Positions 32,061 to 39,487 of a stretch of DNA of 64,000 nucleotides are shown here, piece by piece; positions within the stretch are counted from its first letter, which is position 1, and each line of letters begins with the position of its first letter. The DNA comes from Bifidobacterium asteroides (GTDB lineage: Bacteria; Actinomycetota; Actinomycetes; Actinomycetales; Bifidobacteriaceae). The notes beneath the pieces are model-generated. The model ran no database searches. It was not told the origin of the DNA and saw nothing but the letters and a program-made list of their open reading frames with translations. The stretch is from positions 62,001-126,000 of the forward strand of contig NZ_QGLL01000006.1 of NCBI RefSeq assembly GCF_003202695.1, written 5' to 3'. Both the position numbers and the translations under genes were made by a program.

Positions 32061-32548
32061 CCATGCCAGCACGTTCAGTCCGTTCCAAGGCCTCTCCGGA
32101 TAGGGGCCATCCACGCATCCAAGAGTTGCCCACCAGGCCTGAGCTCAGTCTGATCAAGGGTACAGGCAAGCCAGGCAAGGCCCGTCATCCCGAACGGGGT
32201 CCAGTAGCTGAGGGGGCCATGCGCCTGATCGGCTGGACACGGACCCGTGGCAATCCCTTGTTGCGCATCATGGTCTCCGTGGTCTTCCTGGCCGCCTGCA
32301 TGTTCGGATCACTGATGCTGCGCACCCAGATGGTCCAGGATTCCTTCGAGGCTACTCGGGTCCAGCATGAGATCAGCAATCTCACTCAGGACGTCCAAGA
32401 CGACCAGAACAAGCTCGACCAGCTTCAGGCCTCCCTGCCGGACAAGGCCCAGCAGCTTGGCATGCAACCCCAGCAAGGTCTGAATTCCATTGATCTGCAG
32501 GGCTATAAGCCCCCTCAGACCCCCCAGGGCAAGGCGGGTAATCCATGA
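32057..32548 (+). CDS. ftsL: FtsL/FtsB-like division protein
   Basis: 163 aa bitopic membrane protein: hydrophilic N-terminus of about 60 residues, one membrane helix at about residues 67-88 (LLRIMVSVVFLAACMFGSLML), then a periplasm-side coiled coil (TRVQHEISNLTQDVQDDQNKLDQLQASL) and a Pro-rich tail. Sequence is poorly conserved in this family; the call rests on the place between rsmH and ftsI and this architecture. It would link FtsQ and FtsW-FtsI in the divisome. ATGA overlaps on both sides. Confidence 0.85.
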   Translation: MTMPARSVRSKASPDRGHPRIQELPTRPELSLIKGTGKPGKARHPERGPVAEGAMRLIGWTRTRGNPLLRIMVSVVFLAACMFGSLMLRTQMVQDSFEATRVQHEISNLTQDVQDDQNKLDQLQASLPDKAQQLGMQPQQGLNSIDLQGYKPPQTPQGKAGNP

Positions 32549-34326
32549 GCGGTAAGGAAACCAAGCGCTTCTGGCACCTGTCTTTCTGCAAGCGCTCGCT
32601 GTCTGTGGGCCTGATCCTGGTTCTGGTGGCCTCGCTGGCCTTGGGCAAGCTGGCCTACATCCAGCTCTTTGATGGAAGGTCCATGGCACAGGCCGCTGCT
32701 GCGGGTCGCACCGTGCCCCACGCCATCAAGGCCCAACGTGGCCGCATCCTGGACGTCAACGGCCGTGTGCTGGCCCAGAGCCTGGAGCGATACAACATCG
32801 TCGGCGACCCCGAGGCGGCAGCCTCCTTTATTCCTGTCAACTGCACCAAGCACACTGGCGACAACTGCCATAGCATCAAAGGACATCCGGTGGGCGCTGA
32901 CGGTGCTGCCGGGGTGGCCCGCCTCCTGGCACCGGCTCTGGGAATGAACGCCATGGAGCTGGGTGGCAAGCTCAGCGTCCCTGGACGGTACGTGGTCCTA
33001 GCCAAGAGGGTGACTCCCGAGGTCAAGCGTGCCATCGACAAGCTGGGGTTGCAGGGGATCATTACAGCCGAGCTGAGCAGCGAACGCACCTACCCTCATG
33101 CTGATCTGATGGGAGCTCTGATCGGGGGCATCGACGACAGCGGCAAGGGTGTAGCCGGGATTGAGCAGATGGAGAATCGGCGGCTGACCGGCTCTGACGG
33201 CTATACGGTCTATCAGCAGGGGATGCTGGGTCAGGAGATTCCCGGAACCGTAACCCGTCAGCGCAATCCAGTCAACGGCAAGGACGTCACCCTGACCATC
33301 GATCAGGACGTGCTCTGGTACGTCCGTCAAGCCCTCAAGTCAGGCTGCGAGCGCTATCATGCAGACTGGGCCCTGGCGGTGGTTCAGGACACCCGCACCA
33401 ACGAGATCCTGGCGCTGGCCGACACCGATGATTACCAGGCGGGCAGCGACCAGGCCAAGGTCAACTCCTCCCGGGCAGTGGCGGAGACCTTCGAGCCTGG
33501 CTCCGTCGGCAAGACCATCTCGGCTGCAGGCATGCTCCAGGAGCAGGTGCACTCCATGACTGATCGATTTACGGTGCCGGACCATATCACTCTGGACAAC
33601 CAGCAGTACAAGGATTCCTTTGATCATGGGGCCGAGCATTGGACACTTGCCGGCATTATACAGAATTCCTCCAACGTGGGCATGGTCATGGCCGGCCAGA
33701 ACTATCCGGACCAGAAGCGCTACGACTACCTGACCCGCTTCGGTATCGGACAGGTCTCAGCCTTGGGTCTGCCTGGGGAGTCCAAGGGGTTGCTGACCGC
33801 GCCTCAGACATGGGACCGCCGCACCCGCAACACGATTCTGTTCGGCCAGGGCTATGCCACCAACGCCGTCCAGCTGACCAATGCCGTCGCCACTTTGGCC
33901 AACAAGGGGGTCCGTTCCGACCAGACGATAGTCCGCAGCCAGGGCGCGGTCAAAGCACATCCGGTCAGAGTCGTGGACGAGAAGGTGGCCGCTGAGGTCA
34001 TGAACGCGATGGAATCAGTGTCTGAGAAATACGAGAAGATGGTCAAGGTGGAGGGCTATCGAGTGGCCGCCAAGACAGGCACCGCCGAGGTGGCCGATAG
34101 CTCCGGCGGCCTGGGCGGCATCGTCAGTGACTGGGTGGGCATACTGCCCGCTGACGATCCGCATTTTGTGGTCACCGTGGTGCTGAAGAACCCTCAAAGC
34201 GCCTCCGGGGTTTACGGTGGCATCACCGCAGGTCCCATCTTCGCTCAGATCGGTGAATTCCTTATGCAGAAATACCAGGTCCCCACGTCTTCCCCCAGAA
34301 CCGATGCTATCCCGGTAACATGGTGA
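32545..34326 (+). CDS. ftsI: septal peptidoglycan transpeptidase FtsI (PBP3, class B)
   Basis: 593 aa. Short cytoplasmic tail, membrane anchor at about residues 15-35, dimerisation domain beginning RGRILDVNGRVLAQS, and a transpeptidase domain with Ser320 and Lys323 in EPGSVGKT (SxxK), SSN at 375-377 and KTGTAEV at 510. No PASTA repeats. It cross-links septal murein with FtsW. The start overlaps ftsL by 4 bases; 46 bp follow before the murE-like gene. Confidence 0.96.
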   Translation: MSGKETKRFWHLSFCKRSLSVGLILVLVASLALGKLAYIQLFDGRSMAQAAAAGRTVPHAIKAQRGRILDVNGRVLAQSLERYNIVGDPEAAASFIPVNCTKHTGDNCHSIKGHPVGADGAAGVARLLAPALGMNAMELGGKLSVPGRYVVLAKRVTPEVKRAIDKLGLQGIITAELSSERTYPHADLMGALIGGIDDSGKGVAGIEQMENRRLTGSDGYTVYQQGMLGQEIPGTVTRQRNPVNGKDVTLTIDQDVLWYVRQALKSGCERYHADWALAVVQDTRTNEILALADTDDYQAGSDQAKVNSSRAVAETFEPGSVGKTISAAGMLQEQVHSMTDRFTVPDHITLDNQQYKDSFDHGAEHWTLAGIIQNSSNVGMVMAGQNYPDQKRYDYLTRFGIGQVSALGLPGESKGLLTAPQTWDRRTRNTILFGQGYATNAVQLTNAVATLANKGVRSDQTIVRSQGAVKAHPVRVVDEKVAAEVMNAMESVSEKYEKMVKVEGYRVAAKTGTAEVADSSGGLGGIVSDWVGILPADDPHFVVTVVLKNPQSASGVYGGITAGPIFAQIGEFLMQKYQVPTSSPRTDAIPVTW

Positions 34327-34372
34327 TACCGGCAGGCATCATGGCGTTTCCGAACGAAGGAGAGATTGCAGC

Positions 34373-35254
34373 ATGAGCGCGCTGAATGAATCAATCTCCC
34401 GACGGTTGACCTTGGGCCAGCTCAAGGGGCGCTACGGACTGACCTTGGTACCGGACTTTGCTGAACCGGTCACAGTGACCTCAATGGTGGACGATCTGCC
34501 CTCAGTGCGCCCCGGCAGCCTTTATGTGCCTGCAGACCAGCAGGTGGATCAGGGCATGGTCGAGGAGGCCGAGCGTCGTGGAGCCTATGCCGCCCTGTTG
34601 CCGACTTCGGCTCGTCAGGAGGTGGGACAGGCACGCATACCTCTGCTCTTCGGCACTATGCGCGCCTGGCAGATGGGCCAGTTGCTGGCCAATGCCGCCG
34701 GCGATCCCTCGGGGGCTTTGGCTGTGTTCGCCTTGGTAGGTTCCCAGGTACAGGACCAGGTGGACCTCTTGGCTGACTTCCTGCAGGTGCTGGGCAATCC
34801 TGTCGGTATGCTCAGCGCCAAGGGCTCGTGCTCGCTGGACCGACGACTGGATCTGGAATATCCCCTGAGCATGTTCGATGTGCAGCGCGGTCTGTCCATC
34901 GCTTTGGAGGATGGGGCGGCCGCCATGGTCATTTCCGTGGAGGATCAGACCTTGGCCATGGACGCTCTGCAGGGGGTGGACCTGGATGTGGTGGCCCTGG
35001 GAGCCCAGGAGGGCTCCACTCGGGATGCGCGGCACGTGCGGCTGATCTCCAAGGCCCGCCGCTACGGGTTCAACCTGGGCGGGCACACCATCGTGGCCCG
35101 GCGCAACGAGGAATCAGACGGGTTGGCTCGTCAGTCTCTGCCCGCTGATGCGCTGAGCGACGATTTGTCCCTGTGCATCGCCATGACTATGGCTGCTGGC
35201 GTCAAACGCAACAACATCAGGAGCGCCCTGCGCGTCTCCCGGGAAATGTCCTGA
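34373..35254 (+). CDS. degenerate MurE-like protein lacking the ATP-binding loop and ligase domain
   Basis: 293 aa against about 490-530 for MurE. The N-terminal domain is recognisable (VTSMVDDLPSVRPGSLYVPA, like the MurE DSRxVxPGxLFxA). Residues 118-230 follow the central domain in outline: ALAVFALVGSQVQDQ stands where TGTNGKTTT should be, and FDVQRGLSIALEDGAAAMVISVEDQTLAM matches the LDLQRLL..VVMEVSSHALA stretch. The Lys/Thr of the P-loop, the SSH and the NLTxDHLD motif are gone. It ends after LPADALSDDLSLCIAMTMAAGVKRNNIRSALR, where the C-terminal domain would start. The frame is intact, with ribosome site GGAGAG and a 9-bp gap to murF, so it is probably a retained non-catalytic protein. 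A working murE must lie elsewhere. Confidence 0.75.
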   Translation: MSALNESISRRLTLGQLKGRYGLTLVPDFAEPVTVTSMVDDLPSVRPGSLYVPADQQVDQGMVEEAERRGAYAALLPTSARQEVGQARIPLLFGTMRAWQMGQLLANAAGDPSGALAVFALVGSQVQDQVDLLADFLQVLGNPVGMLSAKGSCSLDRRLDLEYPLSMFDVQRGLSIALEDGAAAMVISVEDQTLAMDALQGVDLDVVALGAQEGSTRDARHVRLISKARRYGFNLGGHTIVARRNEESDGLARQSLPADALSDDLSLCIAMTMAAGVKRNNIRSALRVSREMS

Positions 35255-35263
35255 GAGGTGAGG

Positions 35264-36790
35264 ATGAGTCAGTCTGTAGGGGCCGGATCCATGCCCATGA
35301 CCCTGGATGAGGTCGTTGGATATGTGCACGGTCGGCTGGTCGAGGTTGGCCCTGCTCTCGAACCCGATCTCGGATCCGTGCGTATGCGGGTGGTGACCGA
35401 CTCACGGCAGGCGGGGGTCGATGGTCTTTTCGTGGCCATCAAGGGCGAGCACGTGGACGGTCATGACTATGTTCCCGGCCTGGGGGCCAAGGGCTGCCGT
35501 GCGGCCCTGGTGGACCACCTGGTTCCGGGCGCTGATTTGCCGCAGATTCTTGTGGATGATACGGTCGGTGCCCTGGGGCTGCTGGCCCGGGCCAACATGG
35601 ACTGTCGGCGTAAGGCTTCAGGCCCCTTCACGGTCATTGGCATCACGGGGTCTGTCGGCAAGACCACGACCAAGGATCTGCTATCCTCCCTGCTGGCACT
35701 CTTGGGTCCTGTAGTGGCGCCGGTCGGATCCTTCAACAATGAGATCGGTCTTCCGCTGACTGCCTTGGCGGTCGGACCGGACACCCGCTACCTGGTGGCG
35801 GAGATGGGCGCCAACCATGTGGGCGAGATTGCGGACCTGACCCGCATAGTTCCTCCGAACATAGCCCTGGTTCTCAAAGTGGGAGTGGCCCATCTGGGCG
35901 AATTCGGTTCTGTTGAGCGTATCGCCCAGGCCAAGAGCGAGATCGTGCGAGGCCTGGTGTCGGGCGGAACCGCTGTTCTCAATGCAGATGATTCCCGGGT
36001 GGCTGCTATGGCTGATCTGGCCTCTGGCTCTGTTTTACGGTTTGGCATGGCCGATGAAGACGGCGGGCAGGACCGTGACCTGGACGGTTCGGCTCGTTTT
36101 CTGGACAGCGACAGCTTGGATAGGCCTGCCTTCGAGCTGCGACTGCGCGGTCAGCAACCGGTTCGGCTGCGATTGGGCATCCCGGGACGGCACAATGTCA
36201 TGAACGCCCTGGCCGCCGCCACGGTAGCCCATGCCCTGGGTCTGGATGCAGAGCGCATTGCCAATGAACTGGGTCGACAGAGGCGTATCAGTCCGCATCG
36301 AATGGCTGTATCGATGGTCCGGTTGCCGGATGCTGTCTTCAGACTGATTGATGATTCCTTCAATGCTAATCCCGATTCCATGCGGGCGGGTCTGGACGCT
36401 CTGGCTGCCTGGAGCGGGTTCAACGGCCCGGCCTACCGGATCGCAGTCCTTGGGGTCATGCTCGAGCTGGGGGATCGGGGGGAGCAGCTGCACCAGGAAA
36501 TCGGTGCCTACTGCCGCCGTCTAGGTATTGATGCATTGATTGCGGTGGGCTGCCCGGATCAGCAGATGAACAGCCTGATCCAGGCCTTGGTGCGTGGTGC
36601 AGGCGGTACGTCTGATCCCAGCGATGGCCAGCCAGGGTCCATGCGTGTCCTCTTTGCCCGCGATGCTGACCAGGCCGACCAGATGGTTCGTCAGCTGTGC
36701 GCCAAGCATTCGGATCGGCAGAATCTTGTTTTGCTGAAAGGTTCGCATATGTCTGGGCTGTCCGATCTGGCCGACCGGTGGCAGGGCTGA
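35264..36790 (+). CDS. murF: UDP-MurNAc-tripeptide-D-Ala-D-Ala ligase
   Basis: Adds D-Ala-D-Ala to the UDP-MurNAc tripeptide. ATG 35264 with AGAGG 5 bases before; 508 aa. N-terminal VTDSRQAGVDGLFVAI, ATP loop GITGSVGKTTTKD (about 126), FNNEIGLPLT, AEMGANHVGEIADLT, and a C-terminal domain with DDSFNANPDSM and ELGDRGEQLHQEIG. All catalytic elements missing from the preceding murE-like protein are intact here. Confidence 0.96.
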   Translation: MSQSVGAGSMPMTLDEVVGYVHGRLVEVGPALEPDLGSVRMRVVTDSRQAGVDGLFVAIKGEHVDGHDYVPGLGAKGCRAALVDHLVPGADLPQILVDDTVGALGLLARANMDCRRKASGPFTVIGITGSVGKTTTKDLLSSLLALLGPVVAPVGSFNNEIGLPLTALAVGPDTRYLVAEMGANHVGEIADLTRIVPPNIALVLKVGVAHLGEFGSVERIAQAKSEIVRGLVSGGTAVLNADDSRVAAMADLASGSVLRFGMADEDGGQDRDLDGSARFLDSDSLDRPAFELRLRGQQPVRLRLGIPGRHNVMNALAAATVAHALGLDAERIANELGRQRRISPHRMAVSMVRLPDAVFRLIDDSFNANPDSMRAGLDALAAWSGFNGPAYRIAVLGVMLELGDRGEQLHQEIGAYCRRLGIDALIAVGCPDQQMNSLIQALVRGAGGTSDPSDGQPGSMRVLFARDADQADQMVRQLCAKHSDRQNLVLLKGSHMSGLSDLADRWQG

Positions 36791-36864
36791 GACATGTATC
36801 GACAGGCATCCCCGCAGCGGGTTCGAACGTTCAAGGACGGAATCCAAGAGTTGGAGTACACACT

Positions 36865-37968
36865 GTGATTGCACTCATCATCGGAATCCTGGTCGCCCTG
36901 GTGGTGACGCTGGCGGGAACCCCGCTGCTGATAAGGCTGGTCCACCGCTTGCACTACGGCCAGTACATCCGCCAGGACGGCCCCAAGTCCCACCTGGTCA
37001 AGCGCGGCACCCCGACTATGGGCGGGGTGGTCATCAACCTGGCCATCCTGCTGGGCTGGGCAGCCTCGGCGCTCTACCGCTACCTGTCGCGGGGCGAGTC
37101 CGTGTCCCTGTCGGCTATGCTGGTCCTGTTCGCCATGCTCTCCATGGGTTTCCTGGGCTTTATCGACGACTTTGCCAAGGTGCGCAAGAAGCAGAATCTG
37201 GGTCTGTCGGTCAGGGCCAAATTCGTCGGCCAGTTCATACTGGCCACCATCTATGCGGTGCTGGCCCTGAAGCTGCCTACCAAAAACGGCTATCCCAGCG
37301 CTCAGGCGGGCATATCCTTTGTTGAGCAGCCCATCATCGACTTCCGAATGGCAGGCAGCATCCTGTCCGTGGTGCTTTTCATCATCTGGGTGAATCTGCT
37401 GATGACGGCCTGGAGCAATGCCGTCAACCTGACCGATGGCCTGGACGGGCTGGCTTCGGGCTCTTCCATGATCGCCTTCGTGGGATACACCGTCATCGCC
37501 TTCTGGGAGAGCTACCACTTGAAGGGCGGTGGCCATGCCGGTCACGCCTACGCGGTCTCCGATCCCCTGGACCTGGCCATTATCGCCTGCTGTGCGGCCG
37601 TGGCCTGCTTTGGGTTCCTCTGGTACAACACCAATCCGGCCTCCATATTTATGGGCGACACCGGATCCCTGGCTCTGGGCGGACTCTTTGCAGCCCTGTC
37701 CATCGCCACCCATACCGAGCTTCTGGCGGTCATTCTCGGCGGGCTCTTTGTGGCAGAGGCCGCTTCCGACGTCATCCAGGTGGGCTATTTCAAGCTCACC
37801 CACAAGCGGGTCTTCAAGATGGCGCCCATCCATCACCACTTCGAGCTGATGGGTTGGCAGGAGTCCAAGGTGGTTGTGCGGTTCTGGATGATCGACCTGA
37901 TCTTCGTCCTGCTGGCCTTGGTCTGCTTCTATGCAGACTGGGTGGTCCGCTCTGGGCTGACCATCTGA
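36865..37968 (+). CDS. mraY: phospho-MurNAc-pentapeptide transferase
   Basis: Forms lipid I on undecaprenyl phosphate in the membrane. GTG 36865, eight bases after GGAG, gives MIALIIGIL and 367 aa with ten predicted membrane segments. Motifs: DGPKSHLVKRGTPTMGG, FIDDFAKVRKKQNLGL, NLTDGLDGLASG, and IHHHFELMGWQESKVV. The gap after murF (74 bp) carries no separate gene. Confidence 0.96.
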   Translation: MIALIIGILVALVVTLAGTPLLIRLVHRLHYGQYIRQDGPKSHLVKRGTPTMGGVVINLAILLGWAASALYRYLSRGESVSLSAMLVLFAMLSMGFLGFIDDFAKVRKKQNLGLSVRAKFVGQFILATIYAVLALKLPTKNGYPSAQAGISFVEQPIIDFRMAGSILSVVLFIIWVNLLMTAWSNAVNLTDGLDGLASGSSMIAFVGYTVIAFWESYHLKGGGHAGHAYAVSDPLDLAIIACCAAVACFGFLWYNTNPASIFMGDTGSLALGGLFAALSIATHTELLAVILGGLFVAEAASDVIQVGYFKLTHKRVFKMAPIHHHFELMGWQESKVVVRFWMIDLIFVLLALVCFYADWVVRSGLTI

Positions 37969-38047
37969 TTCCGTCCATTTATGGTGCCAGCCCTCGGCAG
38001 CCGGTATCATGCCAAGCAGATGCCGGAGCTAACGGAATGAGGTGTTC

Positions 38048-39487
38048 GTGGATATGGACTTGAGCCGGAAGCGAGTGTTGGTAGCCGGACTGGGCATTTC
38101 CGGACGGAGCGTGGCTGCAGCCTTGCGAGGGCGGGCTGCCGGGGTGACCACTGTGGACCAGTCCGCCCCGCATGCCGATCTTCGTGACTTCGATCAAGTG
38201 GACTGGGACCAAGTGGACCTGGTCATGGCCTCGCCCGTCTTCAACCCGCGCACTCCTTTTATTCTTGAGGCGCAGCGTCGGGGCATTCCCGTGGTCAGCG
38301 AGGTGGAGATGGCTTGGATGCTGCGGGTTCCTTCAGCACGGACCGGCCGGCCAGCGCCCTGGATCGGGATCACCGGCACCAACGGCAAGACCTCGACCAC
38401 CAGAATGGTCGCCGCCATGATGCAGGCCAGCGGGTTTACGGCTCCTGCGGTGGGCAACATCGGCAAGGCCATCTCGACAGCCGTCCTGGACCCAGCCAAC
38501 GACATGCTCTGTGTGGAGCTGAGCTCCTTCCAGCTGCACTTTACCTTCTCTACGGCTCTGGAGTGCGCGGCCATCACCAATTTGGCCGACGACCATCTGG
38601 ATTGGCATGGGGGATTCGAGGCCTATGCGGCCGACAAAGCACACATTTACCGGGGCGTGCGCAAGGCACTGGTCTACAACGCAGATGACTCCCGTGTCTC
38701 TGATTTGGCCAGACAGGCTCAGCCAGCCCCCGGTTGCCGAAGGGTGGGCTTCACTCTGGGTAGGCCCGAGCCTGGGCAGTTGGGCGTGGAGAACGGCTGG
38801 GTCGTGGACCACAGCGGATTGACCGGGCAGGATCTGCAGGAGAGCGTCAGACTGGTCCAGGTGGCCGAGTTGACGGACCTGTGCGAGCCTGACGGTACCG
38901 TCTATCCCCATCTGCTGGCCGATGCCCTATGCGCTCTGGCCTTGGCTCTGGGTGCTGGAGCTCGCGTCGATGCGGCTATCGAGGCCATGCGCACCTTTAC
39001 GCCCGGCAACCATAGGATCAGCACCGTGGCCACTCTCGGTCAGGGTTCGCAGGCCATTCGCTTTGTAGACGATTCCAAGGCCACCAATGCCCATGCCGCT
39101 GAGGCTTCCTTGGCCAGCTACCATGACGGCCAGGTGGTTTGGCTGGCCGGCGGGCTGGCCAAAGGCGCCCGCTTTGACGATCTGGTTCGGTCCCGCAGGT
39201 CCAAGCTGGCTGCAGCCGTGGTCATCGGCCAGGATCAGCAGCCCATGATCCAGGCCATCAAGGACCAGGCACCCGATCTGCCGGTTACTCTGATTGATCC
39301 TGGCGATGGAGATCAGGTTATGGCCTGGGCTGTTCGGGCTGCAGGCTCCTATGCGCAGCCCGGTCAGGTGGTTCTGTTGGCGCCTGCCTGTGCATCCATG
39401 GATCAGTTCGCATCTTATGCCGACCGAGGCGAACAGTTTGCCAAGCAGGCCAAACAGTGGGTCCGCGAGCATGAAGCGCGTCACTGA
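38048..39487 (+). CDS. murD: UDP-MurNAc-L-alanine:D-glutamate ligase
   Basis: Adds D-Glu to UDP-MurNAc-L-Ala. About 479 aa. Start codon uncertain: GTG 38048 (six bases after GAGG) is preferred, with GTG 38042 and ATG 38054 possible. N-terminal [17 protein letters not shown] loop [36 protein letters not shown], and C-terminal [12 protein letters not shown] with [10 protein letters not shown]. It overlaps ftsW by 17 bases. Confidence 0.95.

Follow-up and report, generated by a model that had tools for sequence, protein, structure and literature searches.

A predicted MurE pseudoenzyme kept in the dcw cluster of Bifidobacteriaceae, with a possible adaptor role in lipid II synthesis

The window, by which we mean the whole 64,000-nt stretch of DNA analysed, belongs by similarity to the B. 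asteroides clade (92-94% protein identity of the slot protein defined below). By sequence and family matches, its dcw cluster runs mraZ-mraW-ftsL-ftsI-[slot gene]-murF-mraY-murD-ftsW-murG. The slot gene is an open reading frame of the + strand at 34373-35254 that occupies the murE slot between ftsI and murF, and its product, the slot protein, is a 293-aa pseudo-MurE with the fold and profile match of MurE domains 1 and 2 only. The gene has an ATG start, zero internal stops and a stop codon 3 nt ahead of the murF frame, and an AAGGAG ribosome-binding site, kept in close relatives, lies 10 nt before the ATG (34357-34362, +). Upstream, locus comparison identifies the open frame of an ftsI-type penicillin-binding protein (PBP; 32545-34326, +). 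Downstream lie murF (35258-36790, +), with complete Mur domains in the domain search, mraY as an open frame (36697-37968, +), and murD, an open frame with complete motifs by domain search (38042-39487, +). An earlier note on this DNA had described an intact 293-aa frame in the murE slot with a ribosome site, tight spacing and normal Mur ligases around it; the frame, the AAGGAG and the 3-nt gap were all found, and the Mur domains of the window's MurF and MurD are normal.

As a single sequence the slot protein has zero Pfam matches, and its MurE matches in NCBIfam are weak (PRK11929, E=4e-5; TIGR01085, E=0.0016), the 17.5 bits on TIGR01085 falling below the cut-off of 257 bits; phmmer against M. 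tuberculosis MurE gave E=2e-4. A profile of 40 orthologues compared with solved structures matched PAP11 best in the PDB (E=1e-15) and M. tuberculosis MurE at E=4e-15. The AlphaFold2 model of the slot protein has a pLDDT of 90.6, and its best Foldseek match in the PDB is M. tuberculosis MurE (2wtz; E=3.5e-14, TM by query 0.65-0.70). A divergent orthologue with 33% identity has the same order of secondary structure (pLDDT 88.9), and the fold and motifs of the family hold down to ~30% identity. In hhalign, the slot family aligned to 26 Actinomycetales MurEs over 287 columns, residues 11-293 (probability 99.65, E=4e-25), and the profile alignment stops at the boundary between MurE domains 2 and 3. 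AlphaFold2, Foldseek and profile alignment thus agree on domains 1-2, which bears out the proposal that the N-terminal and central domains follow MurE.

The closest relative is the dcw-encoded MurE of Actinomycetales (UDP-MurNAc-tripeptide synthetase, TIGR01085), which shares with the slot family the place between ftsI and murF and the fold of domains 1 and 2 and is nearest to it by both profile and tree. A tree built on domains 1-2 joins the slot family to the Actinomycetales MurEs (SH-aLRT 90) on a stem branch of 2.47 changes per site and sets apart MurE2, our name for the full-length bifidobacterial MurE encoded outside the window; the profile-profile match to MurE2 is E=3e-6, against 4e-25 for the Actinomycetales MurEs. 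Six Actinomycetales loci were checked, and in each a full MurE stands between PBP and murF. The two differ in that the slot family measures 280-414 aa, versus ~500-580 for Actinomycetales MurE, and is without the P-loop, EVSSH, DHLD, the carbamylated-lysine site and domain 3. We conclude, from profile, tree and position, that the slot family descends from the dcw MurE.

What was lost is extensive. Across 77 aligned slot sequences, the sites of the P-loop (TGTNGKT), TTP, EVSSH, R209, N222/D226, K241 and N327/N330 are gone, and so are the columns that contact substrate or nucleotide in MurE, namely G63, H67, G68, T85, D86, T174, T175, R209 and the P-loop (L250 numbering). In the same numbering, columns 199-203, 222-229 and 241, which hold EVSSH, N[LI][ST]xDHLD and the carbamylated lysine, are unconserved or have no partner in the slot family. 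The P-loop position in the window reads LVGSQVQDQ (residues 121-129; 34733-34759, +) where MurE has TGTNGKT, and a Walker A motif was found in 0 of 123 distinct slot proteins. SVEDQT (residues 188-193; 34934-34951, +) stands where MurE has EVSSHA. The absent domain 3 carries 43 of the 116 columns that are conserved at 90% or more in 26 Actinomycetales MurEs. Structural glycines and alanines are retained. These alignments confirm the losses that had been read from the single sequence: the altered P-loop, the missing SSH and NLTxDHLD motifs and the absent C-terminal domain. A split MurE with its ligase domain in trans was rejected, as a genome-wide search for an orphan ligase domain returned five Mur_ligase_C matches, all of them in the full-length frames of murC, murE2, murF, murD and folC. 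Judged by its sequence, the slot protein is a pseudoenzyme that has lost its catalytic parts, and because the motifs are missing, it is predicted to be without ligase activity on UDP-MurNAc-L-Ala-D-Glu.

The family has also acquired conserved residues of its own. T34, Y72, A117, H138, N142, P143 and L199 are newly near-invariant, and three of these fall within LHxLGNP, a motif present in 119 of the 123 distinct slot proteins. In the window the longer family-specific motif, L[H]xLGNPVG, spans residues 137-145 (34781-34807, +), with Q in place of H138 and the rest of L[H/Q]xLGNP kept. The topology of the P-loop fold would place LHxLGNP at the end of the helix that follows the P-loop, at the sheet edge away from the nucleotide. 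Low-complexity insertions of roughly 50-120 aa interrupt several orthologues (L069, L070, L075, L076, L079, L081, L082, L047 and L051); they lie in domain 1, following residue 53, or in the linker that matches the DHLD region of MurE.

Of 189 Bifidobacteriaceae genomes, 177 have a slot orthologue, among them 161/161 of those at least 90% complete, and named loci come from the B. asteroides clade, many other Bifidobacterium species, Gardnerella, Bombiscardovia and Pseudoscardovia. The frame is intact in all genomes listed, and the gene adjoins murF on the same strand in 77/77 loci and follows the PBP in 70/77. Thus orthologues at the same locus, for which the earlier note had advised a search, are present family-wide next to murF, and truncation is not confined to this strain. 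All 12 genomes without a slot match are less than 90% complete. One of them (G162) is also without a murF match, which makes an assembly gap likely; in a PBP+MurF tree, the remaining slot-less genomes that could be placed fall into a clade whose sister is the slot-bearing one, with values of 0.99 on the slot-less clade and 0.70 on its sister. The slot-less clade consists of low-completeness MAGs and may correspond to the termite-flagellate symbionts of PMC11707648. In five of its loci the PBP directly abuts murF, and MurE, where found, is encoded elsewhere. Because this clade does without the slot protein although MurF and MraY remain, the protein is not universally required. Beyond the family, a slot-type protein was sought in 297 genomes of the order and 246 of the phylum, where the stronger matches were full-length MurE frames only and the few short MurE-like frames resembled contig ends. 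No fusion of the slot gene to any neighbour was found; long frames in G064 and G072, considered as fusions with FtsI or MurF, are stop-free frames overlapping a neighbour. In the genomes searched, the slot family is thus distributed throughout Bifidobacteriaceae apart from one sister clade, and the pseudoenzyme is ancient.

In comparisons of 13 B. asteroides-clade species, the slot gene has a dN/dS of 0.057 over the true ORF, below both murF (0.124) and ftsI (0.103); all are pairwise Nei-Gojobori estimates from a custom script. In one species pair, the slot protein is the most conserved of the dcw cluster, at 94.2%, with the others at 88-93% and MurE2 at 85%. The two C-terminal helices, the last part of MurE domain 2 by model and alignment (residues 263-293; 35159-35251, +), show no amino-acid change in the 13 species. 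Synonymous change is low there too, because these codons run into a nearly invariant stretch of ~150 bp that spans the slot/murF junction. Codon comparison indicates that the slot gene is under strong purifying selection, which rules out decay, and a lineage-specific truncation is rejected by the intact frames across the family together with the dN/dS. The earlier note had argued for a selected non-catalytic protein rather than decay, and this is upheld by the dN/dS, the family-wide orthologues, the fold of MurE domains 1-2 and a full MurE elsewhere in the genome. It had set beforehand, as refuting findings, a missing MurE fold, active orthologues in close relatives and a dN/dS near 1; none of these was observed.

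The full MurE called for by the earlier note lies 5.3 kb beyond the window, on the minus strand (G000:C6:131298-132692; L138:7248-8894). MurE2 has the motifs GTKGKT, EVSSQ and NISPDHI, scores 728 bits on the subfamily NF001129, just under the cut-off of 762, and is also under the TIGR01085 cut-off, forming a subfamily apart from other Actinomycetales MurEs. It was found in 40/40 sampled slot-bearing genomes. MurE2 is likely a foreign or much changed MurE. Both it and the slot protein are Mur ligase relatives within one genome, and MurE2, which presumably carries out the displaced reaction, is full length with motifs on a separate tree branch, whereas the slot protein is truncated and motif-less. 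Tandem duplicates of MurE2 occur in some genomes (G019:C1:716178-719349; G041:C1:1698977-1702182; G152:C29:47260-50409).

The simplest history, which was not in the earlier note, would be one of displacement: MurE2 took over, and the dcw MurE was freed from catalysis and then re-used. The resident dcw murE of the bifidobacterial lineage would have become a pseudoenzyme as catalysis passed to a distantly related MurE2 encoded elsewhere. In the process it would have shed its ATP site, its substrate-contact residues and its whole ligase domain, while the body of domain 1 and domain 2 was kept folded. From general knowledge of bifidobacterial walls, we infer that a switch to L-Lys or L-Orn peptidoglycan may have caused the displacement.

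As for its present role, we give about an even chance to the reading that the displaced dcw MurE, turned pseudoenzyme, is now a non-catalytic adaptor at the cytoplasmic end of lipid II synthesis. The mechanism and partner that we infer are as follows. The adaptor would work without turnover, holding precursor enzymes together, with contacts made via the new LHxLGNP surface and the face of domain 2 bared by the loss of domain 3. The likeliest partners would be MurF, MraY or MurG. More tentatively, the displaced enzyme may have become a structural subunit of a lipid II assembly complex on the MurF-MraY-MurG side, required throughout one family.

Reduced genomes narrow the choice of partner. Deletion has removed ftsL and ftsI from seven genomes, of 0.6-0.9 Mb and all in one genus, which leaves mraW directly against the slot gene; the slot gene and murF are kept (the loci concerned are L053, L054, L055, L056, L057, L059 and L061, with L321). 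In G180, the one of the seven that was read through, the cluster runs on as mraY-murD-murG without ftsW. Since the slot gene was kept where ftsI, and in G180 also ftsW, is gone from the cluster, FtsI is unlikely as an obligate partner, this natural deletion in seven genomes speaking against it, and FtsW is probably not an obligate partner either. Four ftsI-deleted genomes were searched whole, and each has one SEDS protein left, near a PBP, resembling a rodA-pbpA pair. As a single SEDS protein and a neighbouring PBP remain where checked, septation in this genus may proceed without the FtsW-FtsI pair.

Evolutionary-rate co-variation recovers the expected groups (pbp-ftsW 0.54-0.75, pbp-ftsL 0.45, murF-murD ~0.5). 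For the slot protein, co-variation with MraY is 0.28-0.36 in every set tried and that with the PBP depends on the set (0.47 in 30 taxa, 0.19 in 39); none is seen with MurD. These rates point toward MraY, with values modest enough that we treat this as a lead, not a result. MurF stays a candidate only because its gene is adjacent. The case for a general Mur scaffold is weakened by protein-fragment complementation in M. tuberculosis, in which Mur-Mur contacts were not found (PMC3605390).

Adjacency to murF also underlies the rival that survives best, a rather unlikely one in our judgement, in which the slot protein would serve a single active ligase, MurF or MurE2, as its own regulatory subunit, whether by activating, inhibiting or stabilising it. 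The constant pairing with murF on one strand, at 3 nt between frames in the window, the co-occurrence of MurE2 in every slot-bearing genome sampled, and the MurE-MurF fusions of other bacteria, which interact with MurG (PMC6420597), are all in keeping with such a subunit. However, the rate of the slot protein does not co-vary with that of MurF (-0.31 to 0.08) or MurE2 (-0.26), while murF, murD and murE2 co-vary mutually (0.4-0.5), and MurE2 is encoded far from the dcw cluster. That the slot protein is a sensor, binding UDP-MurNAc peptides or nucleotides with no turnover, is improbable: the fold of domain 1, which in MurE is the UDP-substrate domain, is retained, but the substrate and nucleotide contact columns are lost across the 77 sequences, and the substrate-sensor role suggested in the earlier note is weakened by the loss of the UDP-MurNAc-contact columns in particular. 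It is decidedly improbable that the slot protein has gained a new enzymatic activity. Several residues are new or invariant and some are polar (N142, R157, E179), but no new cofactor motif was seen, and H138, the residue that would first suggest itself for catalysis, is unlikely to serve in it because the window's own protein has Q138.

We see very little chance that the open frame is maintained purely for an effect in cis, to carry translation or an RNA element into murF. Among 13 genomes of the B. asteroides clade, nucleotide diversity does drop from ~0.09 to 0.01-0.03 across the slot/murF junction (35183-35332, +), as such an element would have it. However, the body of the slot gene has a normal dS (~0.35) and a very low dN (dN/dS 0.05-0.07 in domains 1 and 2), and the protein fold and motifs persist at the low identities given above. 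The junction matched no Rfam family and folded no better than shuffles (z=+1.3), and both a known RNA element and a stable RNA fold were therefore rejected. A second stretch of low diversity lies at the ftsI/slot-gene junction (window 34313-34402). That the slot gene is a decaying pseudogene is practically negligible as an explanation, for although its catalytic parts and C-terminal domain are gone and its stem branch is long, its frame is intact in all listed genomes, its dN/dS is far below that of decay, and it is kept in 0.6-0.9 Mb genomes that deleted its neighbours.

An adaptor derived from MurE would bear on an old open question, the physical complex of cytoplasmic Mur enzymes, for which data conflict (PMC3605390 versus PMC6420597). 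A MurE body kept for shape alone, in dcw order, across bifidobacteria and Gardnerella would be a clean test system for the Mur complex; if the reading as a lipid II subunit is true, a pseudoenzyme of the Mur ligases, established within the dcw operon, would be a natural probe of it. The slot family would also illustrate clearly how a displaced enzyme can be reused, and it would be a cell-wall protein specific to a family that includes important gut symbionts. The family seems undescribed: no earlier description of it, or of Mur pseudoenzymes, was found in the open-access literature searched, many subscription journals being outside it.

Two known systems offer likenesses. PAP11, a MurE-like subunit of the plastid-encoded RNA polymerase, is likewise a MurE homologue, the top PDB profile match to the slot family, and is reported to act mainly in plastid gene expression, not wall synthesis (PMC9456514, PMC9434261). 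It differs in that it has 768 aa, its match to MurE2 reaches into the C-terminal domain and it works in transcription, whereas the slot protein is truncated and sits in a cell-wall operon. The Bordetella MurE-MurF fusion (PDB 8f5d) holds a MurE body beside MurF within a larger architecture and binds MurG (PMC6420597). In that fusion both halves are catalytic; in bifidobacteria, the slot gene and murF are separate and the MurE part appears dead.
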